A DNA stretch of 64,000 bases from Cudoniella acicularis. Taxonomy: Eukaryota; Ascomycota; Leotiomycetes; Helotiales; Helotiaceae. The translations under genes and the position numbers were made by a program. The DNA is taken from positions 1 to 64,000 of the forward strand of contig JAAMPI010000079.1 in the NCBI GenBank assembly GCA_013054445.1, written 5' to 3'. The notes under the pieces are model-generated. The model had not been told where the DNA came from, did no database searches, and saw nothing but the letters and a program-made list of their open reading frames with translations. Below are positions 45,806-61,900 of the stretch, in pieces; the first letter of the stretch is position 1; every line of letters begins with the position of its first letter.

Positions 45806-47088
45806 TTATTTTATCGCCTCTCTCAATAACGGCGCTACCTGCTTTCTACTATTCTCCACTCTCTCTTGAACCCAACACCTCCTGTACCCCTCTCCCTGTT
45901 CACCATCTAACTTACCCCCCTCCCAGACCTGCAACCCCAGCTTTTCACCAGCCCCCTTCTCAAACTTCTTTAGGGCCTCAGCACCTTTCCCATCAATACC
46001 CCAGACCAACAATTCCCTCCCAAACTTTCCACCCTCATGACTTGTAGTCATTATAGCCACCAAACTCAGCCCCTTTTCAATTGCCCAGTCCTGCACAACC
46101 TTCAAAAATCCCTCCTTACCACCTGCCTTTGCTACTAAAAACTCCATATTTTTAACCACGGAGCTAATCCCCAGCTCCACCCTACCTTCACTCCACTGCT
46201 TATAATCCTTCCTCAAAATATCCCTCAACCCCAAAGACGCAATATCTTCCTTCGCCCTCGAAATCTCATCATAATACTCCTTCCGATCAAACTCCCTACC
46301 AACAATACCCTCCAAGAAAGCCACAGCCTCAACATCAGTCTTCGTAATCTTCTCCTTACTCGTCAAATTCGCAGTATCAACAAGCACAGGGGCCAACGCA
46401 ACTTTCCCTACCTCAACATCCCATTGCTTTTCTTCCCCTTCCCCCACATTTTTATTGTTTTCCCTATAACGCCGCCATTCTTCCACCACAAGACTAGCAC
46501 AGCTCCCACACGTTCTAATCACCCTCCCTTCACCTGCTGCATCCTCAGTGGAAGACACATGTATCCTCTCATCCTCATGATGGTCCAGCACTCCCACAAC
46601 ATTTTCCCCATACGCCTTCCCCAACTCCCCAAGCAAAACATTATGATCCACGAGTATCCATCTCGTCCTCTCTGGCTTCAATTCCTGCATGAGAGTATGC
46701 GGGTCCGAGGACTGGGAAGGCAGGTCTGAAAGCGTTATCAAATCGCTAGGTTTGAGATTTGCTTGCTTAAGCACGGGTAGGAGCTCCGGTCGAAGAGAAA
46801 GGTCTGCGCGTAAGAGATTCGAGAGCGGTATGTAGAAACCATTATCTTTTTTCGACGAATAGGTGCGAAGGTAGGCGAGGACGACGGTGCTGCAGAGAGA
46901 ATCGAGATCTGTTTTAATCCTCCAGAATTAGGCTCACTGAAAAATGGTACAAGAGAGGAGTGAAGGGTACCGGCTGATTCATTGCCCACGATAAATGTCA
47001 ACGGTGTGGCTTGTTGAGTTGGGTTCGCGAGGAGGGCTTTCGCGGAGGAGAGGAAGGATCGGAGGGAGGCGCGTCGTAGAAGCGGCAT
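45806..47088 (-). CDS. PPX1: exopolyphosphatase, DHH family (PPX1)
   Basis: The complement of 45806-46908 and 46971-47088 gives 406 residues. DHH-family motifs occur in order: GNESADLDS (motif I Asp residues), RWILVDHN (motif II), VVGVLDHHEDE (the name-giving DHH motif) and VLVDTANLTSK (motif IV). The C-terminal DHHA2-type domain follows (YDEISRAKEDIASLGLRDIL ... IMTTSHEGGKFGRELLVWG). Such enzymes release orthophosphate from the ends of polyphosphate using Mn or Mg ions. The N-terminus MPLLRRASLRSFLSSAKALL is basic and hydroxylated and may be a mitochondrial presequence. The intron is 62 nt with a GTACCC donor. Confidence 0.93.
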
Positions 47089-47510: not shown

Positions 47511-50500
47511 TTACGTCTCTGGTCCCTCTGCAAGTCTTTCACTCTCCATCCAAGTCCATATCTTTGCGACAAGTTGCTGATCAATTCGAGGGACATGCGA
47601 CATGATAGGCAACTCCCTTTTAGTATTTTCCGTTGCGAATATGGCGTATGGCTTCTTTAGTTTTAAACCGAGATTCTTTGCGTAATCATGAATGTAAGTT
47701 CTCCTCCAAAGTCGTGCCAGAGCTTGCGCGGGGTCATCCTCAAGGTTTTCCAGTTTATCGAGCCAGTCTTTCAACGGAATTAAACCGAAAGGTTTAAAGT
47801 CTTTAAGCCATTGCAGCAAATGTCTCCATTCAGGCGAGTTTGAATTATTGACAATGTGTCAGACGGTGCATGCCTCTTTGTTAGAAGATGTACTTTCGGA
47901 CCCAATACTCTCAACAATCGCAGCGGCAGCAATGTCTAGGGGAAGCCATGATAGCGTTTCCTGGAGATGGGGAAGAAATCCTGTTCTGTGTACACTTCTG
48001 ATCATGAGGGGCCAAGTTTCTGACTTATTCCACACACCATTTTGCGTATCCCCAGTTAGTTGACCAATTCTGGCAATGGTAACCCGTCCTTTGAACTGGG
48101 AGGTTTGGCTGGCATTATTGCATATTGCCTCAGCCACCCACTTACTTTGTAAGTACCCCAGATCATCGGTTTCTGCGGCGTCGATAGATATTTTTTCTGG
48201 AACGGGGTCACACCGAGAGCCTAAGACACTAGCCGTTAAAGAACAAAACAACAATGTTGGCGGTTGCCTACAAGCCATGGCCACATTGATGAGGTTTCTT
48301 ATTCCAACCAAATACGGTGCGAAAGCTTTGAGCGGCAAGGAAAAGTTGACGACCCAGGCTGCCTGGAGGATTCGTTACTACACGCGTATTTTGTAGGTCC
48401 CAAACTCACATGAATGATCGTTACTGAAGTAAATTCGCAGACCTGTTTGAGAAGAGCAGAGGAGATGCCCAGATATCTGTGATCTAGTCTAGCAGGCACG
48501 CAAAGTACCCTCTTGTTGTCCATGTTCAATGGTTGCTTTTTTCGTCTCGTAAGGCTTTTACATACTCGTTCCTGAGCTGCTGTGGCGTCTGAAGCCCGAA
48601 CGAGACAGATAATGTGTGAAATCGAAGAGCACTTTTGCATTTTATCGAGAATATTAGCTCCCAACGCCCCGGTAGCTCCAGTCAATATCTGGCAACATCA
48701 GTTGGGAATCGCTGACAATCCTGAAAACGACTTACCACTGTATTTCCATGAAACCCTTCTTCCAACCGTTCTTCTATCGATGTGGTAGGGAATGTGACAG
48801 TCTCAAATATGGAATATTCGTGTACATGATCCAGAATTTCCTTGATCTGATCCGTTTTCGCTGAGGCTTCTCCGCGGCAAATTGAACCATGTACTCGCCA
48901 AGTCTCGACGGTTAGCTGCGGAACAAACCGGTCTTTTGACTTTTTTTTCTTGTCAAGATTCTTACTTGCTTATGTTTCCGCAATCATATACAGTATTCCA
49001 TGGCAAAGGTGGACCCGTTGGGAGAAGTTTCTGATGGACAATTAGCAAGATCCCGACTTTGAACAATGTAAGGGATAAAGACCTTTTGTAGCAAAGCTCT
49101 GATTTGAGTTACTTTCATCGAATCGACTCCGTGGCTATAAAAGTCCAGCTCATCCTCGAGATTCGTCTCTCCATCAAGGACTTCAGCAATAATTTTTGCC
49201 ACTGTACTTATAATCCCCTCGGCATCCGTTGGAGCTCGAATAGTGGGTGACGTGGTAGGCTCGTCTTTACCCATCTTTTCGTAATTATAAGCGCTGTTGA
49301 TGTCGATCCTAAACATTTTTTCTGCACGTCCCTTCATTATTGTCCCTTTGCTGCTCCTGGGCAGTTCAGGTTCTGACGAGTTGATAATTATTATCATGGC
49401 TTTAGAAATTCTCGTGTAATTCTCGCCTCGACTGTTTATCGTCTGCAATTTTTGCCAAGCATAGTCCCGTATCTTCCTTATTTGGGTCTCAAGATGGACC
49501 GGCTTGATCGGGAAGACAAGAATACCAGGAAATTGTTGCCCGTTTCCGAAAACAAGAACCTCGCGAATCAATTTCTCAGAATCATCGAATACTCCCTCGA
49601 TCATTTCAGGATCGAACTTCTTTCCTGTGGCCAAAGTAATTCTGCTGTCAATTCTTGAATGATCTCTCCAAGCGTTGACTATAGTTGGGTGAGGTTCGAA
49701 TAAATCGCCAGTATGGAAGGTGCCATCAAGCCGATTCGATATTGCTATATGGGGCCACCCTTGGAGTACTATAAGTTCTGATAGTCCTGAGCCATCTTCT
49801 TGCTTCTTGAATTGTAAATAGGGTGAGCCGGGGAGCGGGCAAAGATACTGCCATGCTTTGTCGGACTCATAGTCACGGTGTGAAGATAGTAGAAACCCAC
49901 ATTCTGCATTCCCAAATCTGGATACCAAGTTCACGCCTTTGGAAGCAAGATCGTTGCCAACACCTTCTGAGAGAGAAGCGCCACCAACACCAACCATGTT
50001 CAAGGATTTCAACCACAAAACAGCAACTTTTTTCTGGGCCAGATATTGAAGTACAAATGGGACACGAGAAATACTTGATGCGGTCCTGCTTGAAGTCCAT
50101 TCCAATAACACGATCGCAAGCGCGAAGGCAATTGAGAATATTCGTAGTCGTCGTTGGCAAATCAGCTTCTGGAAACAGCATTATCGTAGAGTTACTTGTC
50201 CAAGATCTAAAACAATCTGCAATACCGCCGTGATATAGTGGAGTTGTCGTGAATGTCGCCTCCGTTGGTTGGTTGAGGCAAGGAAGTACCCCCACACCCG
50301 CTCGATGACTTTGGGGTATTGGCTTTGGACTTCCCGTAGAAGCACCTGACGTGTGATGGATGTATGCCAAGTCCAGTTCATTAGCTAGGGGCCATTTCGA
50401 TTTTCTTGAAGTGATATTTTGCGCAGTTTTAGCAAGGGAGACGAGTGTCACTTCAGATGCCTGCCAAGGAAGTTCCATAGACTCATTCAGTGCTGATGGC

Positions 50501-51143
50501 TCTGCACTCGACTTGATAGCTAATTTACTGTACCTCTTATCATAAAGTAGTATTTTTGCGCCACATGATCTTCAAAGCTGTGCAATTGCTATTGGCTGAC
50601 ACTAAGGCCTAGAAATGATGTGGTCACCCAAAGTGGTCACAATTATGGGAGAAGTGATACTCAGAGCTTTACTTACGCGATGAGCAATACTTGAAATCCG
50701 GCCCGCAATAGGCCAAGCCAGCTAAAAAGAAAGCCTGTAGATGTTGGACACAAGAGCGCCACACAATATTTAGGTTTTCTTCTCGGCATCCCAATTAAAT
50801 GGTCCAGAATACGTGCACTGTCGATTGAACCATCTCCCATTTCTCGAAAAGCTGAAAACGATTAGAATATGTCACAAGATATCCTGGAAACAAAACTGGT
50901 ACTGCTCAGGTAAGGATAAGGAAATCACGAACTGATCAACTCGAAGCCCCAGTCATTTTCCTCTCCTACGAGGTGGAAACGTGGAAATACAACCGCGAGA
51001 TGGGATCCATGTTCTTCGGCCTGGAAATCTAGAAACTCGTTGATTGTCTTCCAAGAATGGGGATTGATAACATTCCGCCAAGCCGCGTGGTCGAGGGTAC
51101 AGGTGAAGTGGCTAGAGTGATCCTTCTCGGGGGTTTTAGACAT
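47511..51143 (-). pseudogene. NRPS-like adenylation-thiolation-reductase enzyme, inactivated
   Basis: Order from the start at 51143: an AMP-binding domain (HHTSGASTGSPKPIPQSH core; NLVSRFGNAECGFLLSSHRD; LDGTFHTGDLF), a carrier domain with the phosphopantetheine Ser in DFYSHGVDSMKVTQ, and a thioester-reductase domain with NAD-binding ILTGATGALGANIL and catalytic Tyr/Lys in YLQSKWVAE. Recognisable exon ends include 51143-50933, 50851-50677, 50608 onward to 49083, 49030 onward, 48736, 48688-48410 and 48362-47511. In-frame stops lie at 50602-50604 (TAG, in place of Gln in the usual APQCQP), 50572-50574 (TGA) and 47859-47861 (TGA). A one-base frame change lies near 50.1 kb. Such A-T-R enzymes reduce carboxylic acids bound as thioesters. 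It is neighbour to a cyclase, a methyltransferase and an ATP-grasp gene. Confidence 0.85.
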
Positions 51144-52091
51144 ACTGTATTTAAGGCCTCGGGTCTTTCAATTTGACCGACAAACAATGCGTGTTTATCG
51201 CTGCAAATCAAGATGGATCAAAGAATGAATGAAATATGGATCGGGGAGTACTTTTTGGACGAAGAAAATGATGAAGGTGGCTTTGCGAAAAGGAGGGCCA
51301 CTAGTGCCCCTGCCTGTTGTGGAACGCCCGAGACCAGCACAACCAGTTATTCTTTCCTCAAGGGCAGAAATGCGCTCATCGATATTGAAAATATCTACCA
51401 TGCAGCAGGTCTTCCCGATGGGCACGTGCCGATATAAAATTTGAGTACTCGATGCAGTATTTTCTGAGTGTCGGGCTCGCAGGGTTCCTATTCTGGCCAA
51501 ACTTATAATATATCACAGTAGTAAAATAACTCAGCTTCGTTAACTAGAAATTATATACCGGATATTTGTTTAAAGGGAGAGCTCTATAGATGACAAGGTC
51601 CAAATCACTATCATATTGTGGGTATATTCCCTTCTTTTAAACAACTCATTCGGATTTTCGTTTGTCCCCGGCACTCAGAAAATACCGGACCGTGTAGCAC
51701 AAGTTCAAACAATACTGTGTTTGCAAATTTCTTCAACGTCATGACGTTGTAGACTCATGAGCTTTCCTTGGCACCAACCCGTAATCAAATCATCTATACA
51801 GGTAATTTTCCGTCTACATTCCGTCGTGCGACCCTCTGACGCTCAGATACACACCGCTTTAGGGGGTTTCACGTGATTACCCCTTTCCACTCGCGTAATC
51901 TTGATCATCTCATTGCAGTATTGACATCTGGTACATTGAGGTACGGTTGTAATTCAAAACTCCATTTATCTCTAAGCCCCACTACATCGGAAATGAATCC
52001 AGTGCCATCACCATCCGTCAAACTCAAAAGCTCAATGACTGCCTGTACCGTTGCTCAAAGCACTATTCCCGTTAAGTTGGCCTTTAACATG
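51144..52091. other. intergenic
   Basis: 0.95 kb. A minus-strand frame at 51195-51500 has a protein-like middle (VDIFNIDERISALEERITG) but no recognisable family. Otherwise this is the NRPS-like gene promoter and 3' flank of the cyclase gene. Confidence 0.45.
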
Positions 52092-53656
52092 TCAGTTGAC
52101 ACTGGCGGATCCATTGATGCGCCCGTTGACTTTGCTGCTTGTATCTTGGATGCCGTCAACACCATTTTCGATGTGCCCGCTGGCATAATTTTGCAGACCA
52201 GCCTTTTTTGCAGCATTCTCCACGACCCTTCCCTCTTCCATCTTTGGGTTCTCAGTATAGCCAGTGTCGCTAGCATCGACATAGGCTTCCAGACCTTCCC
52301 CATTTCGTGGATAATCTTTCATAAGCTCCTTGTGTCTTCTCAAAGCGGAGTTCATTTCCTCGGCAGACACGTCGTTCAGAAATGTACAAGATTCGAGTGG
52401 ACTTGGCACAGCTGATCGAAGAGGTCCATCACGGGTTCTGAGAAGTGCAGCGGTCGCTTTCTCAAGCAGTGCCTCACCGAATTGATGGTAGTCCATCGAG
52501 AGGCCGGCACGCGAAAACAGGTTCAACAGTCATCGATGCTCCTCGTCGCTGATGATCTTTCGGTTGTTTGCAAGGGTAGCAGAATATGCCATGTCGATGG
52601 AAATGGCGTGCCCATGACGGAGAGGAGTTTCGGGTACCAATTCGTGAAGTGGCGACCAGGTATGACCGTAAGCAATCACTCGATCTAGACCGATTTCGTG
52701 AAAATTTGGTGTCTCCAACTTCAACATCTCGTGTATACCTTCCCGGTTGATTTTGTCTGCTGCGTCGATCAACTCTTGAGATGAGTCCTTAGCTCTGCCG
52801 GAGCTCAGATCAATGAGCTGTTCACAATATTTGTCGAGAAGATTGAAAGTATTCAAGTGCGAGCAAGTAGATATCTTAATCAACTCTGCGAAGCCATTTC
52901 GAATCTGGGCCGTGGGGAGAGTTTGAAGAAAGGCGAAATCAAGGAAGGTATGAATTGGGGTATGATATGCACCCAAGCGATTCTTGTAGCTGCCGTAATT
53001 TACAGCAACCTTGATTGACACAGAGGCATCAATCAAACCGATAGTGGTGGTTGGGATTCGAATGAAATTGGTATTGCGCCTGTAAGCCGCACATGCAAAA
53101 CTGTGCACAAAAAGTTAGCTTTGAGTTGAGAAACGTTCACCGGCCATAGGAAATTTATGGGAGAGTGCCTTGATATGATCTCTGGCTTCAAAAGCAAATA
53201 TTTTACTCGGCAACATCAGTGACTAAACTACCTCTAACAACAAGGACGGGTTCCTGAACAGAAGTTAGCCAAAGCAATAGCCTCTGCGGCTGTAGAGGTC
53301 AGAGTACAAACTTTGCGATAGATCCCAAATTCGTTCATGGAATCCACAATGCTCAACAGAGCGGGTATCGTCTTGGCCTTCTCTCCGACCTTGGTCTTGT
53401 GTATCTTTAACTCAAGTTTGTAATGCTAGAAGTATCTTTCCATCTGCTTGCCATAGACATTGTAAATGTTCAAATCGGTTACAGCCAGGCACCTCTTCCA
53501 TTTTTTATAGCAATCTGCCAAATTTGGATTCTCCACATTAAAGACACCATCAATGAAGGTAAAATCATATTCGATTCTCTCATAGTCTTCAACATGGAAG
53601 CCCATATGACAGGAAGACGTCTTGATCTCGGAAACAGTTGCCTTGAGGTCAGACAT
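52092..53656 (-). pseudogene. sugar-phosphate cyclase, demethyl-4-deoxygadusol synthase type, inactivated
   Basis: Three exons (complement of 52092-53100, 53207-53253 and 53312-53656) give 467 codons including the stop, a family-length frame with two premature stops: TAG at 53426-53428 (codon 77, after MERYF) and TGA at 52530-52532 (codon 321, after SDEEHR). The family is a 3-dehydroquinate-synthase-like cyclase: FHVEDYERIEYDFTFIDG, YRRNTNFIRIPTTTIGLIDA, KLETPNFHEIGLDRVIAYGH (metal-binding His) and PLRHGHAISIDMAYS. Its neighbours identify it as the mycosporine enzyme acting on sedoheptulose 7-phosphate rather than the 2-epi-5-epi-valiolone type. The NAD-binding glycine-rich segment reads VVRGSLVTDVAD, where the family has Gly at three of those positions. 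All three changes fit G-to-A. Confidence 0.85.
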
Positions 53657-53733
53657 TTCGTCGTATTTTTGACTTGGAAATGAGGATTTGCTTGTGTTTG
53701 ATTCAACGGGGAGAATCTACAATAAATACTCCC

Positions 53734-54830
53734 CTAAAAATGAGGACTCAAGCTATTCTTGACTTCACCAACCATCTTAGGATATGTGAAATAAATTGCA
53801 TCATATTCGTCCCGCTCTCCTGGAGGCCAATTAGGAAGAGACCGGAGCCTTCTCCGTAGAAAGGTAGCGCGGCCAACAACGCCAACACACAGGGCAACAT
53901 TCTCGAGGTACCAAGAGGTATCCACAAGCTCGATATTAATGTTACAATTTTTGATGATTTAGTCGGGACGAAAAGAAGTTTGAGAAAGTGGAGATATCAA
54001 ATTTGCAGCAGGAAGTATTTGCCGCAGATGTCGTACGTAAGTATGACTCGAACACGACATGGGAAATGCAAATTCCATAGCGGGAAGAGTAGCTGAGCAA
54101 GAAAATGCACCAGAAGTAGTGGATGTAAAGTACTGGTGAGAGGTAGTCTAGCCAGTCCCGCGTCCTGGTCCCTTGGAAAACCCCGCGACCCTCTAGTGCC
54201 AGATCTCGGGTACCTAGATCTTGCTTTGAGTACACTTGAATCTGGTGATAGCTTTCTTCTGCTCATTCAAAAAGTGGATATTCCGTCGGAAGCCATTAGT
54301 GCTTTTGTGGAACACCTGCTGAAGGTTTGGCTAGGGACAGCGACATGGACGAAAATGTCGGGGCCAGATCGGTGTGATTCGGGCACTTGCTCGAGCCTAC
54401 AATTCCACAGCACCCAGATGAAGCCAGTAACCGTGCTTTGAAAAGGTCATCAAGGGAGAGAAAGTCATAACCTCAGTAGTGTTGCGAGGTGCGAGGTAGT
54501 TGTAGTCCAAGAGCTTGCCAAGGGGCACGACTCTAGCGTGTCAATGCCCACTTCGCATGCCTCCAGGGCTTCAATCGCCAACGAATCATTCAATTATCTT
54601 TGTCAAATATTGTTGTCCGGCTCGTCGCAGTGACCTGCTGTACCATATCCAAGCATGGATCGAAGGCTGGTATTCGAGAGCAATTGCCATTCTACGTTCC
54701 CGAGGTGACTGGTCCCAGGTCAATTACGCGCACATTATCTGCGCAATCTGAACGCCGTGGAAATCGAGGCCTCCGATGGAAGCCGGGTAGAGAGCATGTT
54801 ACTTCCGCTGTAGTGCCAACTTAGATCGCA
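53734..54830 (-). pseudogene. possible remnants of an unidentified gene
   Basis: Between the divergent cyclase and methyltransferase genes the minus strand shows scattered protein-like pieces. These are HARVVPLGKLLDYNYLAP then NTTEVMTF (about 54440-54540, preceded in frame by a TGA at 54541-54543), KHGYWLHLGAVEL (about 54400) and LRSLPNWPPGERDEYDAIYF (about 53800-53860). Stops and shifts separate them. I recognise no family, and the pieces may not belong to one gene. The region also has to contain the two promoters. Confidence 0.25.
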
Positions 54831-54929
54831 GGTAGACTAATCGAAAGAAGCGGCGTTTGGTAATACTCGGTCAAGGTGAGTGTTTTCGAATTGGTTGTTC
54901 CTCAAAGTCACAAAGATCTGTAGTTGGAA

Positions 54930-55684
54930 ATGCCTGAATTCGACGAAGGCAAGGCATGTGTTGGGCAAGAAGAGGGAGTCTTCGTGAGTATGTTCTGAGT
55001 CCTGTGTCAGGTTCTGCCACTAAATACCTGCAGTTTGATGATGGTCGTGAAGGAGACTCTGTCGATTTTGTCACAAAGCATCCTAAACGAGACGAAATTA
55101 GAGGATCTCCAACCAAGGTCCTCTGAACAATTGACGAATATGGTCGGACGAAAAAATACCTCATGAATGTCGGCGAGGAAAAGGGCAAGATTGTGACGGA
55201 CCTCATTCTGGAACACAAGCCGCAGACGCTGGTCGAGTTGGGCTACTGCGGATATTCAACCATACTATTTAGTGCCGCAGTCCGAAACGCTGGTGGGAAA
55301 CAATACCTCTCGTTGGAGCGCAACCTGAAATTTGCGAAAGTCATCGAGATCCTGGTAGAATTTGCTGGCCTAGATGATATAGTGAAAGTCATCGTCAGAC
55401 CAAGCAACGAAGGCATTAAAAAGCTTCACCACGAGAGACTGAGAACTATTGACGTGATGTTCTTGGACCACTACAAGCCTGCATACACAACAGACCTGAA
55501 GCTCTGCGAGCATTTAAGGTTGATCAAGAAGGGAACTGTTCTTGCGGCAGACAATGTGATCAACCCGGGAAATCCACCATACTTGGAATATGTCAGGAGC
55601 CCAGTTGGAGAAGATCATGTTCAGGCATATATTGTACGGCAAATTTTAGAGTTTTCTCTCAGATGTCACCTAGCCCTTTACTAA
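54930..55684 (+). pseudogene. class I O-methyltransferase (COMT-like), inactivated
   Basis: Exons 54930-54983 and 55034-55684 (50-nt intron with a CACTAAAT branch-like site) give MPEFDEGKACVGQEEGVF then FDDGREGDSVDFVTKHP in one frame to 55684. A TGA at 55124-55126 interrupts it just before TIDEYGRTKKYLMNVGEEKG. Downstream, the SAM-binding motif (TLVELGYCGYSTILF, with one Gly where relatives have two), metal-binding Asp in MFLDHYKP and Asp-Asn in LAADNVINPG are present. The C-terminus departs after YLEYVRSPVGEDH and looks truncated. In mycosporine pathways this enzyme methylates the cyclase product to 4-deoxygadusol. A start at 55163 would bypass the stop but lose the N-terminal helices. Confidence 0.8.
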
Positions 55685-56343
55685 GATGTTCTACTATGTA
55701 GGTGAGGCGTGAATCAAGACAAAAAGGCGTTGCCATTCCTCAGCACTTCAGGGCAACATAGCGAGAAGGATAGGTTCTTTGAACTTTTCTTGCAGCCTAA
55801 AAGGCTTATCCGTTGCGCTGCCATCAGCATTGCAGTTCATGATCAATTGTACGCGCAAAATCGTAGCAAATCAGAAGGCTCAAACCCAGATCTTGGCTCT
55901 CTGGTTTGCTGGATTTCCTCGCTTGGAAGTGCACGGTCCAGTGCAATGCTGGTGGCAGCGCAACGGATAGAGGCCAAGATAAAAGGCCTTTCTATAATAG
56001 CCTGTCTCCAGCTTCTCGCGGCGAAGGCTTTAATGTGCAAAATGTAAATATGTTAAGCGTGATAATAATTCCTAAAGTCTTATAAAAGGTAATAATAATA
56101 CTATTCTGAGCTAGAAAATCCCTCTAGGGTTGGACTTCATTTTCTACCTCTGGAATCCCCAAGGGGACTAAAGACTTCTGCAGCTATTCTTGGACTTGTA
56201 GCTAAGCCGAGAATTAACCGCTTTGAGGGGCAACTCTACCGTTAGCCAATGAAAGCCACCGCTTCTTGAAAGTCAGCCCCACTTATCTAGTGTATTTAAT
56301 ATAGTTAAATAAGCAATTTTGGGCTACAAACTATTAGTTTAGA
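55685..56343. other. intergenic
   Basis: 0.66 kb between methyltransferase and tRNA copy. A plus-strand frame at 55709-56047 has no recognisable domain. The rest is AT-rich. Confidence 0.5.
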
Positions 56344-56447
56344 GCCCGCTTGGCTTAGGGGTAGAGCGTCGCACTCGTACCGTGTGGTTTTTCAAACGGA
56401 TCAAGAGCATAATGCGAAGGTCCGCGGTTCAATTCCGCGAGGTTAGC
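56344..56447 (+). tRNA. tRNA-Thr(CGU) with intron, acceptor stem broken (probable pseudo-tRNA)
   Basis: The D-arm (GCTT-AGGGGTAGA-GC), anticodon stem TCGCA/TGCGA with loop CTCGTAA (anticodon CGT at 56376-56378), variable loop AGGTC and T-arm CGCGG-TTCAATT-CCGCG are all well formed. A 32-nt intron (56380-56411) sits at the canonical position one base after the anticodon. The 5' acceptor strand GCCCGCT needs AGCGGGC opposite, but the sequence after the T-arm is AGGTTAG; only two pairs form. AGCGCGC appears five bases further on, as if a short insertion displaced it. It is therefore probably not functional. Confidence 0.75.
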
Positions 56448-56957
56448 GCGCATATCACTCTCTTTAATCTTCACTATAACTAACATAATTAGTGGGCATA
56501 TTACGCATCAAACTTTTTTTTTATTTTTTAAATAACTTTTGCAGTGGGCTTGTGATACCCGTACTCGTTTACCCTAGTCTCCGTTGTTATTCCGCCACAA
56601 AAACATTATTTATTAATTTTATTTCTGCTGATAAATTTTTCTATGTGGTTACATCTGTGATTTCCCTTTGATTCTAGGTTCTCACACAGAAAGAATCATG
56701 ATCAAGAGCATCCTAGTCAGGTACGTTGTAGCAAATAGCCGTTCGGCCGCGAAAATAATTGGCGCATGTGATGATGACGTGTAATCTGCAAGCTGCAGAA
56801 GCAGTCCAACCAAAAAAAAAGTTATGGTGTTTTCAGAGAAGGATGAAACACTTTTGAACAATAATTTTCCATTGGGCATTGTCTATTCTCCCTTAAGCAA
56901 CAGCAATGCTTGAGAAAATGAAACTTTAAACCCTGTCGCTCAATTGGCATTTCAATC
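56448..56957. promoter_or_regulatory. upstream region of the ATP-grasp gene
   Basis: A T-run at about 56512-56529 could serve as a Pol III terminator for the tRNA copy. The rest is the ATP-grasp promoter and leader. No gene seen. Confidence 0.45.
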
Positions 56958-58544
56958 ATGCCTCTTACCATCACCTCCCCAACCTACTTTCACGTCCTTC
57001 AAAACCTCTCCTTGATACTTCTAGCTGTCTTTTTCGCTCCATTCTGCACTGGGTTCGCTATCTCGAGTACCCTGATATCGCCTTTCACCAAAACTTCAAA
57101 ACATATCAAGCACCACCGACAATGGCGGCAGAAATCTTCTTCAACCTTCAAGCCTCGAACTGTGCTGGTCACAGGCGTAGGAATGAGCAAAGGCCTCGCC
57201 CTTGCGCGAGCATTCCACCGCGCTGGCCACAATGTTATCGGCGCTGACTTTGAGCCTTACCTTATACCCGTTTCTGGTCACTTCTCTCTCTCCATTTCGA
57301 AATTTTATCGACTCTCCAAGCCCACAGGCTCAGTAGGCACGGCGACCTACATTCGGGATCTTCTTTCGATTATATCCGAAGAAAAGGTCGAACTCTGGGT
57401 CAGCTGTTCTGGAGTGGCATCCGCCCTTGAAGATGGCGAGGCCGCAGAGGTTGTTCTTAAAGAAAGCAAATGTGTGCCCATCCAATTTGGGGTGACCCTC
57501 ACGGAGACTCTCCATGAAAAGGACTCCTTCATATCCAACACGCGCAAACTCGGTCTGAACGTTCCAATTACACACCTCGTAACCTCTGAAACCGAAGCTC
57601 TGCACTCCCTCTACCCAACTTCTCCGCGTCTTGAGAAACCCCTTTCTCCAAGGGAGAGACACAAATACATCATGAAGCCTGTGGAAATGGACGACAGTAC
57701 GCGAGCAGACATGACTCTCCTACCTCTGCCAACCCTCAAAGAAACAGAATTGCACATTCGACGTCTAAATCCCACTCCATTCCGCCCCTTTGTTCTACAG
57801 CAATTCATCTCTGGTCCAGAATACTGCACACACTCGCTCATCCTCAGAGGGAAAGTAAAATGTTTCGTCGCGTGCCCTTCCTCCGACTTCCTGATGCGTT
57901 GTGTCGCACTTCCCACCACCTCAGCGCTTTCCCTTTCTATGCAGCGATACACCTCTATATATGCCGAAAAGACAGGAAAAAACATGACAGGACATTTTTC
58001 TCTGGACTTTTTGGTCCCGGAACACATAGCGAGGAGAGCGAAGAACATGTTTGGAGTCTCTGAGGATGAGGTGAGAGACATCATGAAGTATTTGTATCCT
58101 ATTGAATGCAATCCTCGGGCGCATACAGCCGTAGTACTGTTCTCCGATGAATCGGAAGATTTAGCTAGTAGCTACCTTTCGATCCTCCCCTCACACGAGC
58201 CTGCTGGCATCACAAATGGCCACCGCGACACTACGCATATTGTTGTTCCGAAACCTTCAGTGCCTGGTTATTATTGGATCTCCCATGATATTGTGGCGCT
58301 ATTCTTCTTACCAATGTTGGCTTTAGTGAGAGGTGAGATTGATATAGGCAAATTGCTAGGGAAGTGGGTGGAGTTCTTGGGCCATGTATTGTTCTGGAGA
58401 GAAGGAACTTGGGAAATATGGGATCCGTGGCCTTGGTGGTGGAGTTGTGTGGGGTACTGGCCCGCAATGTTTGCAGTGAGACTTTGGGAGAGGAGATGGT
58501 GGAGTAGATGTAATGTGAGCACTGGGAAATTGTTCGGCTGCTAA
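56958..58544 (+). CDS. ATP-grasp ligase of the fungal mycosporine type
   Basis: A single uninterrupted exon of 528 residues. The N-terminus is a membrane segment (LSLILLAVFFAPFCTGFAI), followed by a basic stretch and the fold start TVLVTGVGMSKGLALARAFH. ATP-grasp elements follow: KYIMKPVEMDD (nucleotide-binding Lys), FVLQQFISGPEYCTHS, and the metal/ATP site YPIECNPRAHTAVV. The C-terminal hydrophobic and Trp-rich part (IWDPWPWWW and on) is typical of the fungal branch and may sit at a membrane. In mycosporine biosynthesis this enzyme joins an amino acid to 4-deoxygadusol. It is the only gene of the local set without a stop or shift, so it may still be expressed or may have decayed last. Confidence 0.88.
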   Translation: MPLTITSPTYFHVLQNLSLILLAVFFAPFCTGFAISSTLISPFTKTSKHIKHHRQWRQKSSSTFKPRTVLVTGVGMSKGLALARAFHRAGHNVIGADFEPYLIPVSGHFSLSISKFYRLSKPTGSVGTATYIRDLLSIISEEKVELWVSCSGVASALEDGEAAEVVLKESKCVPIQFGVTLTETLHEKDSFISNTRKLGLNVPITHLVTSETEALHSLYPTSPRLEKPLSPRERHKYIMKPVEMDDSTRADMTLLPLPTLKETELHIRRLNPTPFRPFVLQQFISGPEYCTHSLILRGKVKCFVACPSSDFLMRCVALPTTSALSLSMQRYTSIYAEKTGKNMTGHFSLDFLVPEHIARRAKNMFGVSEDEVRDIMKYLYPIECNPRAHTAVVLFSDESEDLASSYLSILPSHEPAGITNGHRDTTHIVVPKPSVPGYYWISHDIVALFFLPMLALVRGEIDIGKLLGKWVEFLGHVLFWREGTWEIWDPWPWWWSCVGYWPAMFAVRLWERRWWSRCNVSTGKLFGC

Positions 58545-58960: not shown

Positions 58961-61900
58961 TTACTCGCCAGGACTTGAGCTCTTCTGATTTTGCTGCAGG
59001 TATGCACTTGGAACTTTGGGCACTCTTGGGCTCTTTGGTGGTTGACTCAAGCCCCTTCTATCCACTCTCAAGTTCTCTCTCAGTCGTTCATTGTCCTTTG
59101 TTCTTCCCCCAGTTAATCTTCGCATACTAGAGCGTGTACCCTGTGCTATGGGTTTGATCATGTTTTCGAGGAAAAAAGACCCTTCTCCAGATATTGGAGC
59201 ACGCTCGTCATCTCCATCTGAGAATACCTCTTCTGTGTTATCTTCATCGGAAAGATAAGTTGTGATGTTGCTTTGGAAGCTTGCTGGCGCCGATGGCGAG
59301 GTAACAGAACGGGAATGCATGCTAGGCCGAGATGAAACGACGTTAAAAGCTCCGGGATTCATGGCGTTCGAGGTGGCATCCCGGCTTCCTGGAGCTGGAC
59401 GCATGTCGGCAAAGCCATTTTGAAAGGACGCGCTACTTGATGTCCGAGCTAAGGATTGGTGCAGTATGGGAAGAGTCTGCTCGTCGTAGAGTTGCGCACC
59501 AGATTCGAAACCGTCTGCCGAAAATCCAACTTCAGTGATGGTGCGAGACGAACGGCCGTCGCTTCCGGGGCTGGCGAGACTGTCTTCAAAAAAGTCGTCT
59601 AAACTATCCAGCTTCATTACCAAATCACCAATGTTCCCATCGCCGCGGGCTTCGTCTGACATCATGGTCTCAGTTCTCTCTGTGCCTGGAAAATACCCGT
59701 ACTGGAAATCATCAATATGGAATTCAACCTCTGGAGTAGGCGCCGGTTCTTCGCTCATATTCTCTGTACTCTGGCACATATAAAATGCAGCGTGCACATT
59801 AGCTCGCGTCGTTTCCGCATGTTTCGCGGGCACCGGAATCGACCATCCAGATTCTTCGGGGATACCAAATAGACTCTGTGTTCGTTCATACTCTTTTCGG
59901 ATAGCTTTCGATGAGCCTTTGGTCATGCTCATACGCAGGTGATGCTTGTCCATAGATGTTCCTGCCATGGTCATGATTTGATCTAGGACTTCCAGGGCTT
60001 GCATACAAAATTCTGTCTGCAGCAATCTCAGGAGAGGCGAGATGAGATCTGGACCGTGCGATGCAATTTCTGGTTTTCGCATGTCGATATCCGGAATAAC
60101 AGTGCAGAGTATGCGCATGGTTTTTACTCTGAACCATGGCGTGCTATTTGTCAACAAACCCATGAGGAAAGTCAAACTGCCAAAGTCCCATTGCGGGAAG
60201 AACGATTCGCGCAAAGCTGACACAAGTTGTGCTAGAAAGTCTTTACTAGAGCGATATCGAGACGCAGCAAAACCACTCAGTGCCCGGGCAATAGTTGCAC
60301 ATCCTTGAGCGTCCGCGACTTCAGCAAGAATACCAGCGCTTGCAATGCATTGGGGATCTATCGTTTCCTGGTCCATTGCGTGAAGAAATCGGGGGAAATT
60401 CGCCAACGAAGCGAATAGCAAACGGCTGTCGTCCCCAATAAGCTCATCGTTTGGAAGTTGGATGAGCTCGTCAAGTATTTTCAGTGTCAGGTCAAAGCAG
60501 ACGGAAGAACGAAGTCCTTTGTAAACCAAAGGTTGAAGTCCCTCAAATCCACCCTCCCATTTTGGTGGCCGACCATCCATGAGTAAGGTACGGACAGCGG
60601 GATCTCCCAAGTCAAGTTTGGCCAACAATTCCTCTAGCATACCTAGACCTCCAAAAATTCTCGCTCATTAATCGTATCCAGGCAAGCGCAAGTAGTCCAG
60701 AAAAGTTGTGGGAAGTTTAACAACTGCGAATGTTCAAGCTTGCAGATGAGGGTTTTGAGTGTAGTCAATATCTCCATGGAGAATGTCTGAACATCGGTAT
60801 CGTCGTCGGCAATTGTGTTCGACAAACGAGCTAACATATCTGCTAACATGGGCTGATCTAAGGACGTTAAGATGCAACGGAATATTTGAAACGAACGGCA
60901 GGCAAGATGACGAACAGGACACGAAGTTGCCCAAGTTAAGGAAAGTTTTCCCCATTGTTCTTGAATGCCTGGATATGTGACCTCAAAATTCTTCACCACT
61001 TCTGTTGTTAGAATCTCCATCCCAGTTGGAACTTTGTTGTCTTGGTCGTCAACTTTGCCATTGTTGTCTTCATATGCCCAAATGACTTTTGCGTTGTGCC
61101 GACGAATGGACTCAATGAAATCTTCGATTGAGCTTTTCGAGGGTACGGTATTCTGGTCGTCGATTCTGGATATAACCAATTCGTGCATAAGATGAATTAG
61201 CATCTCTCGAGCTTGCTCTTGAACAAGTGGGATATAGTGATCCCAAAGCACCGTAACAACCTGTAGAAGCAATGGTACATTTTCATCAACAAGTTGCACA
61301 GGCGATACCATCAAATCAACCAGAAGGATCAGCGACAATTGACCCAGAGAAAATCCAGCTTGTTTGGTCCCAACCGGCAAGGCTTCCGAAAGTTCTGCGA
61401 CATATGGTAGTAGTTTGATAGCATCAGCTGGTGGCGGTACGAGCTCCCGTTTCTCATTTGGAATCATTGCTTTCGGCGTGATTTGCATAAGGAGAAACTC
61501 AACGACCTTGACTCCTGCAGGAGTGCTTGACAAGAAAACCACTATCTGTTTTGCGAACTCGACGAAGTTCTGCTCACGTCTATCCAGGCATAGGGACATG
61601 ATAAAGTCTAAGACGAGCTGAACGTTTCCAGCATGAGGACCAGTCGCAAGTGCTTGCCACAATGCTTGAACTTCATTGTGCAAAGTGCTGCTAGACTTGA
61701 TTGTTATTTCGAACAAATTTGCTAGCAAGACATAAGATTGTGCTGTCGGTCCTCCATTCGGATCCAGTTGCAATTCGATAATCTGAATCCAAGGAAGTAT
61801 GACAGCTACCATATTACGCTGTGCACTGGCCTGGAGGTCTTTAAAGTAGGCTGTAAATTCGGAGAATATGAGGAAGGCTAATTCGGAATGTTGCTTGGAA

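Follow-up and report, generated by a model that had tools for sequence, protein, structure and literature searches.

A decayed four-gene mycosporine-type locus with a putative carboxylate reductase gene in Cudoniella acicularis

Gene content and organization of the locus

The window, i.e., the entire 64,000-nucleotide stretch of Cudoniella acicularis DNA that was analyzed, contains four genes at positions 47511-58544, encoding, in this order, an NRPS-like adenylate-forming reductase (A-T-R; minus strand), a desmethyl-4-deoxygadusol synthase (DDGS; minus strand), a COMT-type O-methyltransferase (OMT; plus strand), and a MysC-type ATP-grasp ligase (plus strand). A preliminary description had claimed such a four-gene set within 11 kb, which is confirmed by Pfam and NCBIfam matches, MysC homology, and the ATP-grasp fold. 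As a correction to that description, the methyltransferase, cyclase, and A-T-R genes are all broken, and the ATP-grasp gene is intact. The following features were assigned:

47511..51143, minus strand: A-T-R pseudogene (Pfam pieces; tblastn against P0140, P0121, and P0128; internal stops)
47859..47861, minus strand: in-frame TGA stop, A-T-R reductase domain (genome search: one TGA in 47535-48371)
48876..48903, minus strand: probable second A-T-R frameshift, thiolation/reductase interval (hinges on the intron model)
50063..50095, minus strand: frameshift, A-T-R adenylation domain (interval in which frame -2 overlaps frame -3)
50572..50574, minus strand: in-frame TGA stop, A-T-R adenylation domain (genome search: one TGA in 50062-50694)
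50602..50604, minus strand: in-frame TAG stop, A-T-R adenylation domain (genome search: one TAG in 50062-50694)
52092..53656, minus strand: DDGS pseudogene (exons 53656-53312, 53253-53207, and 53100-52092)
52530..52532, minus strand: in-frame TGA stop, DDGS exon 3
53426..53428, minus strand: in-frame TAG stop, DDGS exon 1
54930..55684, plus strand: COMT-type O-methyltransferase pseudogene without a recognizable C-terminus (exons 54930-54983 and 55034-55684)
55124..55126, plus strand: in-frame TGA stop, methyltransferase
56349..56441, plus strand: tRNA gene (Rfam RF00005, 34.7 bits), a landmark outside the pathway between the methyltransferase and ATP-grasp genes
56958..58544, plus strand: MysC-type ATP-grasp ligase, intact (528 aa, single exon)

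ARAGORN reported no tRNA at 56349..56441. The DDGS and OMT genes are separated by a 1.2-kb spacer in which no gene was recognized; its interpretation as a repeat was rejected, since a genome search found no other copy.

On the minus strand, Pfam matches were obtained to AMP-binding, AMP-binding_C_3, PP-binding, and two pieces of NAD_binding_4, followed by DHQ_synthase and DHQS_C, and on the plus strand to Methyltransf_24/Methyltransf_3; the ATP-grasp ORF gave no match in the Pfam search. The A-T-R gene has approximately 7 exons (counted by eye), and its adenylation, PP-binding, and thioester reductase domains are present in order in the pieces of the window as well as in the intact relative P0140. 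The AMP-binding piece scored 27.7 bits, slightly under the Pfam cut-off of 29.9, NAD_binding_4 was above its cut-off, and the thioester reductase match TIGR01746 was below its cut-off. The carrier Ser and the reductase Tyr-x-x-x-Lys, which we take to be A-T-R motifs, were found in a composite reading of the gene and in an alignment. Fungal adenylate-forming reductases and Lys2 share the A-T-R layout; P0140 scored far under the cut-offs of the Lys2 and carboxylic acid reductase models.

The best solved relative of the cyclase is 5tpr (E 7e-132; next cyclase 8e-57), which is presumably the Anabaena DDGS and is labeled 3-dehydroquinate synthase in its structure file. Moreover, the window cyclase matches 23 of the 30 residues of the DDGS signature of Phaffia rhodozyma given in the excerpted report (PMC10057719), and the earlier proposal of a DHQS-like sugar-phosphate cyclase of the mycosporine type is thereby substantiated, the enzyme being DDGS-like. 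The adjoining, divergent O-methyltransferase was assigned at the level of the COMT family, being near animal COMT (E 1.1e-34) and weakly MysB-like (22%, Nostoc sp. HK-01). The ATP-grasp protein matches NCBIfam PRK06849, below its cut-off, and shares 30% identity over 382 aa (E 6e-45) with MysC of Nostoc sp. HK-01, a protein named by place and homology (hypothetical protein in the AP018319.1 record). Its predicted model (pLDDT 76) adopts an ATP-grasp fold, with the L-amino acid ligase 3vot as top match (E 9.1e-14).

Decay of three of the four genes

Eight lesions, i.e., six in-frame stops, one clear frameshift, and one probable frameshift, are distributed over the DDGS, OMT, and A-T-R genes, and the absence of intact reading frames for these three genes makes the locus a pseudogene cluster. 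No further copies of the three genes, intact ones included, were found in the genome. In a comparison of invariant alignment columns, for which rows were picked by hand, the window DDGS departed in 14 of 209 columns versus 5 of 215 for the worst of 25 others, and the window A-T-R in 17 of 174 versus 11 of 185 for the worst of 21 others; the ATP-grasp protein had no departures in 49 columns (rank 11 of 25). RIP was rejected as the cause of decay, as the indices of the broken genes resemble those of the rest of the window.

The assembly is fragmented (1836 contigs), which could favor the explanation that the lesions arose in sequencing or assembly and that the cluster is functional. However, most of the lesions (six of eight) are in-frame stops rather than indels, the lesions are spread across three of the four genes, invariant-column change is raised in DDGS and A-T-R with a clean ATP-grasp protein, and the neighboring ORFs are open, so that such errors are a highly improbable explanation. 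Judged from the sequence, the functions of DDGS, OMT, and A-T-R are lost, and the pathway is dead in this C. acicularis genome; with these three genes non-functional, no mycosporine would be expected from this species via this route.

Known systems and gene linkage in relatives

The MYC cluster of Phaffia rhodozyma, as described in the excerpted report (PMC10057719), contains DDGS (minus strand), OMT (plus), and ATPG (plus) in the same order and on the same strands as the window, OMT and ATPG being matched by annotation. This experimentally proven layout agrees with the earlier designation of cyclase, methyltransferase, and ATP-grasp ligase as the mycosporine core. In contrast to the window, in which three of the four genes are broken, the Phaffia cluster has functional genes and lacks an A-T-R gene in that account (PMC10057719). 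Moreover, Phaffia DDGS, OMT, and ATPG alone led to mycosporine-glutaminol in yeast, as judged by HPLC comigration (PMC10057719), so that a clustered A-T-R is not needed in that lineage and hence not everywhere, which speaks against the reductase step as a general rule. The mys cluster on the Nostoc sp. HK-01 plasmid AP018319.1 has homologues of DDGS and MysC in common with the window, from which it differs by a D-Ala-D-Ala-ligase-like gene located farther along and by the lack of an annotated A-T-R within 13.2 kb. Bacterial mys clusters were not found by a single-protein search of genome contigs, and an alignment search yielded one weak alphaproteobacterial locus among 123 stretches. For Hypoxylaceae, mycosporine-like clusters formed by NRPS-like genes are reported, homologues being present in most genomes of the family, so that the presence of an NRPS-like gene in such fungal clusters is already on record (PMC8403587); in the excerpted text this gene is called NRPS-like, not explicitly A-T-R, and is given without gene order or reaction.

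Relatives were collected by three protein searches, with the best 120 matches listed per search. The earlier expectation that A-T-R is conserved beside the other genes was borne out in several of them: DDGS (M1818_002762) adjoins A-T-R (002763) in Claussenomyces by locus tag, both genes lie on a 17,182-base contig in Lachnellula occidentalis, and A-T-R and ATP-grasp carry the tags ONS95_010804 and 010807 in Cadophora gregata and 6783 and 6786 in Oculimacula. In Venturia inaequalis, DDGS (BLS_008717) is near ATP-grasp (008719), and in two Venturia species A-T-R linkage is seen at the level of one contig. The window A-T-R falls inside the clade that includes the A-T-Rs with tight linkage (27 rows, support 100). 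Elsewhere the linkage is loose or absent: among the matches listed, 21 organisms occur in both the A-T-R and the DDGS list, of which 9 do not have the two genes on one contig and 12 do, with tags that differ by 23 to 112 in 4 of these 12. Some lichen and Dothideomycete genomes show such distant tags or different contigs. Botrytis makes mycosporine-glutamicol and is not named among the best 120 A-T-R matches listed. Taken together, the sequence identifies the locus as a decayed representative of a known pathway, with a putative reductase partner that is conserved.

Proposed role of the reductase and fate of the ligase

Fungal mycosporines often carry amino alcohols, and the excerpted publications on them do not name the enzyme that forms these compounds. 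In intact relatives, DDGS would cyclize sedoheptulose 7-phosphate to desmethyl-4-deoxygadusol, the methyltransferase would convert this to 4-deoxygadusol, and the ATP-grasp ligase would link an amino acid to it. The A-T-R would most likely then activate the carboxyl group of the mycosporine-amino acid, load the conjugate on its carrier domain, and release it reductively as an aldehyde or alcohol. We infer every one of these reactions for these species, the reductase step above all. The interpretation in the preliminary description is supported in part, its link between the reductase and the amino alcohol staying a hypothesis. With moderate confidence, we consider the window a decayed four-gene ascomycete mycosporine cluster, the A-T-R of which most likely reduces the mycosporine-amino acid carboxyl in intact relatives.

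The order of ligation and reduction may be reflected in the adenylation domain. The Asp of the C. acicularis Lys2 (His-Asp-Pro) and NRPS (Phe-Asp-Met), which we assume to bind the alpha-amino group, aligns with the His of Tyr-His-Gly-Gly in the A-T-R; aligning the His residues by hand puts a Gly opposite this Asp, and neither alignment places an acidic residue there. Tyr-His-Gly-Gly is nearly invariant among 32 aligned A-T-R relatives. The predicted structure (pTM 0.46) has too low a confidence for the substrate pocket to be read. As the A-T-R lacks the Asp of Lys2 and NRPS, reduction after ligation looks likelier than prior formation of a free amino alcohol. The latter route, in which A-T-R would make serinol, glutaminol, or glutamicol for the ATP-grasp ligase to join to 4-deoxygadusol, agrees with the occurrence of such groups in fungal mycosporines and with the incorporation of glutaminol by the ligase as described by the Phaffia authors in the excerpted report (PMC10057719), but the conserved non-acidic residue argues against it and we regard it as unlikely. 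Somewhat less doubtful, though still improbable, is that A-T-R is a neighbor with another product, linked by ancestry rather than function. Its absence from the Phaffia cluster as reported (PMC10057719), the loose linkage described above, and its lower conservation (best identity 50% versus 80-83% for DDGS among the matches listed) would fit this; the tight linkage in Claussenomyces, Lachnellula, Cadophora, and Oculimacula, the shared contigs in Venturia, and the decay of A-T-R along with DDGS and OMT speak against it.

The intact ligase may not be that of the cluster. By tree (22 rows), it groups with Oculimacula 13805, encoded on another contig, apart from the cluster copy 6786 (96/98), and thus belongs to a paralogue clade outside the ligases adjoining the cluster in relatives. 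Its unbroken invariant columns, and the presence of the ligase in Halenospora and Tricladium, neither of which is named among the best 120 DDGS matches listed, also fit a paralogue that does a job of its own and lies beside the dead cluster by chance. On the other hand, the gene holds the place and strand of the ligase in the reported Phaffia layout (PMC10057719), a Tricladium ligase of the same clade shares a 1.77-Mb contig with A-T-R, and a second, cluster-type ATP-grasp remnant was rejected, none being found in the window or the rest of the genome, where no other ligase was found. We regard a chance neighbor as a serious possibility, somewhat short of probable, and one compatible with the decayed cluster favored above; the ligase was probably kept through another use, or is a paralogue never tied to the pathway.

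A more far-reaching proposal, put forward tentatively, is that the A-T-R conserved beside DDGS in various ascomycetes acts as a dedicated mycosporine carboxylate reductase on the already ligated mycosporine-amino acid, and that the window represents a case in nature where the entire route was lost, with a MysC paralogue left under constraint for another purpose. If true, such a dedicated reductase would answer the origin of ascomycete amino-alcohol mycosporines, and a conserved A-T-R beside the pathway offers a single gene to delete or express. Moreover, the locus suggests that Helotiales can lose the sunscreen route and retain its ligase-like paralogue, which raises the question of the job of this paralogue.

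Gene content of the locus

The locus is a genuine, decayed member of the known mycosporine pathway, in which the NRPS-like adenylate-forming reductase (A-T-R; adenylation, thiolation and thioester reductase domains) is a conserved extra gene with a plausible, putative role. Its interest lies in the relatives that carry an intact set and in the surviving, probably paralogous ligase. All four genes of the preliminary description are present between the DHHA2 and MOR2-PAG1 genes, in a genome assembly of 53.2 Mb and 1836 contigs:

45806-46927, DHHA2 gene, flanking the set on one side
51143 to 47511, minus strand, A-T-R
53656 to 52092, minus strand, desmethyl-4-deoxygadusol synthase (DDGS)
54930-55684, plus strand, COMT-type methyltransferase
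56349-56441, tRNA gene separating the methyltransferase pseudogene from the intact ATP-grasp gene (Rfam match only, 34.7 bits; not reported by ARAGORN)
56958-58544, plus strand, ATP-grasp (MysC-type) ligase
58961-60664, MOR2-PAG1 gene, flanking the set on the other side

No gene was recognised in the approximately 1.3 kb separating the DDGS and methyltransferase pseudogenes (53660-54930), and no second copy of this spacer was found in the genome.

Read with X at its stops and compared with structure chains, the DDGS best matched 5tpr (E 7e-132), which we take to be the Anabaena DDGS and which is labelled 3-dehydroquinate synthase in its own file; the next cyclase was 4p53 (E 8e-57), and DHQ synthases scored 1.7e-27 or weaker. 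Moreover, 23 of the 30 residues of the DDGS signature published for Phaffia (excerpt of PMC10057719) agree in the window. The methyltransferase is a COMT-family protein, matching a catechol O-methyltransferase at E 1.1e-34, and is 22% identical to Nostoc HK-01 MysB; its recognisable match ends short of the COMT C-terminus. The A-T-R pieces match Pfam AMP-binding (just below cut-off), AMP-binding_C_3, PP-binding and NAD_binding_4, as well as thioester reductase, in pieces and below cut-off.

The ATP-grasp protein has no Pfam match, matches NCBIfam PRK06849 below the cut-off of the model, and is 30% identical over 382 aa to MysC of Nostoc HK-01, a protein named by its place after the DDGS and O-methyltransferase genes. 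Its structure model (pLDDT 76) most resembles the L-amino acid ligase 3vot (E 9.1e-14). The enzyme may be membrane-bound, because the model places long helices of seemingly hydrophobic sequence in the N-terminal region (9-43) and close to the C-terminus. Among the best 120 of 1164 matches, the closest relative is from Halenospora varia (73%), followed by Tricladium and Glarea; Halenospora varia and Tricladium are Helotiales. The ATP-grasp protein P0063 is named catechol O-methyltransferase by a source, a name perhaps drawn from a fused or neighbouring gene.

Decay of the cluster and the retained ligase

In-frame stops were found in the DDGS (two), the methyltransferase (one) and the A-T-R (three), the last also bearing a clear frameshift, plus another that hinges on the intron model. 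Departures from columns invariant in relatives were counted by leave-one-out, using relatives hand-picked from the 120 matches listed for each protein (25 for DDGS, 21 for A-T-R, 24 for ATP-grasp). The window departs at 14/209 columns in DDGS (worst other 5/215) and at 17/174 in A-T-R (worst other 11/185, Tricladium), and at 0/49 in ATP-grasp, where it ranks 11 of 25. In an assembly that may be incomplete, no other DDGS was found besides the AROM enzyme, no other methyltransferase or ATP-grasp of the same type was found, and other A-T-R or A-domain pieces were more distant (at most 37% identity). No RIP signature was found. Given the lesions, the departures and the lack of other copies found, the mycosporine pathway looks dead in Cudoniella acicularis, as judged from sequence. 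Its loss may be common to the Tricladium/Halenospora group, because the Tricladium varicosporioides A-T-R (P0121) departs more often than the other 20 relatives and neither genus is named among the best 120 of 3215 DDGS matches.

In a 53-row ATP-grasp tree rooted on Nostoc MysC (bootstrap not quite settled, outgroup branch very long), the window protein falls in a 22-row clade (96/98) together with Oculimacula 13805, encoded on a different contig from the Oculimacula cluster, and outside the ligase rows that adjoin A-T-R or DDGS by tags; a 118-row tree gave the same placement, with a weak deepest split (57). This grouping with an off-cluster protein, apart from the cluster-linked ligases, suggests that the window ATP-grasp may be a paralogue and not the cluster ligase, although it occupies the ligase position of the Phaffia layout and a Tricladium ligase of the same clade lies on the A-T-R contig. 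A paralogue retained next to decaying neighbours probably serves a purpose of its own.

Linkage of the A-T-R in relatives

Linkage was assessed among the best 120 of 1164 ATP-grasp, 120 of 557 A-T-R and 120 of 3215 DDGS matches; a shared contig was assumed from the same species name and the same size of the longest contig, and locus tags were assumed to run in contig order. At least 12 A-T-R/DDGS pairs (from 120 and 111 matches having a contig), at least five ATP-grasp/A-T-R pairs (119 and 120 matches) and at least one ATP-grasp/DDGS pair share a contig, which by itself is weak evidence where the contig reaches a megabase.

Gene pairs in relatives, among the matches listed
A-T-R and DDGS, shared contig: Claussenomyces (002763, 002762); Lachnellula occidentalis (17,182 bases); Phialocephala subalpina (167 kb); Coleophoma cylindrospora; Rhexocercosporidium; Venturia effusa; Pycnora; Xylona
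A-T-R and DDGS, shared contig, tags 23, 54, 76 and 112 apart: Xylographa bjoerkii, Lecanora helva, Oleoguttula, Neophaeotheca
ATP-grasp and A-T-R, shared contig: Oculimacula (6786, 6783); Cadophora gregata (010807, 010804); Venturia nashicola; Tricladium; Stipitochalara
ATP-grasp and DDGS: Phlyctema (shared contig); Venturia inaequalis (ATP-grasp 008719, DDGS 008717)

The three-tag gap between A-T-R and ATP-grasp fits the four-gene order of the window, and the gaps of 23-112 tags may reflect the loosening of a formerly tighter linkage. Among the matches listed, 9 of the 21 organisms named for both A-T-R and DDGS are without a shared contig: Xylographa soralifera, Lambiella, Pseudocyphellaria, Sclerophora, Circinaria and Aplosporella, together with Meristemomyces, Cryomyces and Diplocarpon rosae, in which the two proteins may stem from different assemblies. 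In a FastTree phylogeny a 27-row clade (support 100) unites the window A-T-R with the tightly linked A-T-Rs; the join of the window A-T-R with Tricladium may reflect long-branch attraction. Tag neighbours, shared contigs and this clade thus support conservation of the A-T-R beside the other genes in these relatives (Venturia and Leotiomycetes), so that the non-conservation named in the preliminary description as refuting its proposal was not the outcome there; outside them the linkage is weaker.

Possible reaction of the A-T-R

The preliminary description had suggested that the A-T-R turns an amino-acid carboxyl into an alcohol. A Tyr-His-Gly-Gly motif is nearly invariant across 32 aligned A-T-R proteins (alignments of 17 and 16, one row common). 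When six A-T-R rows were compared with Lys2 and one NRPS of the same genome, the Asp of their His-Asp-Pro and Phe-Asp-Met, respectively, aligned with the A-T-R His; hand-matching of the His residues placed it opposite Gly, and the A-T-R residue is thus non-acidic under both alignments. In Lys2 and NRPS this Asp presumably binds the free alpha-amino group. Because the A-T-R is without it, a substrate with a tied-up amine, such as a mycosporine-amino acid, would seem likelier than a free amino acid, as read from the alignment, the structural model being too poor to refine this picture. The genome has two Lys2-like (alpha-aminoadipate reductase) loci (C994:29667-32772 and C1736:19831-23037; L019-L022), both with stops within the matches that may be introns.

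A search of openly licensed PMC papers found no proposal that mycosporine amino alcohols derive from an A-T-R. Yeast carrying the Phaffia DDGS, OMT and ATPG yielded mycosporine-glutaminol, by HPLC comigration (excerpt of PMC10057719), which counts against the A-T-R as a general rule for fungal mycosporines. The Botrytis cinerea product is given as mycosporine-glutamicol (excerpts of PMC9318770, PMC4665425); a Botrytis DDGS is present among the best 120 of 3215 matches. The best 120 of 557 A-T-R matches, many of them lacking an organism name, include none labelled Botrytis, which does not imply absence from the genus. NRPS-like genes can form mycosporine-like clusters, with homologues in most Hypoxylaceae genomes (excerpt of PMC8403587).
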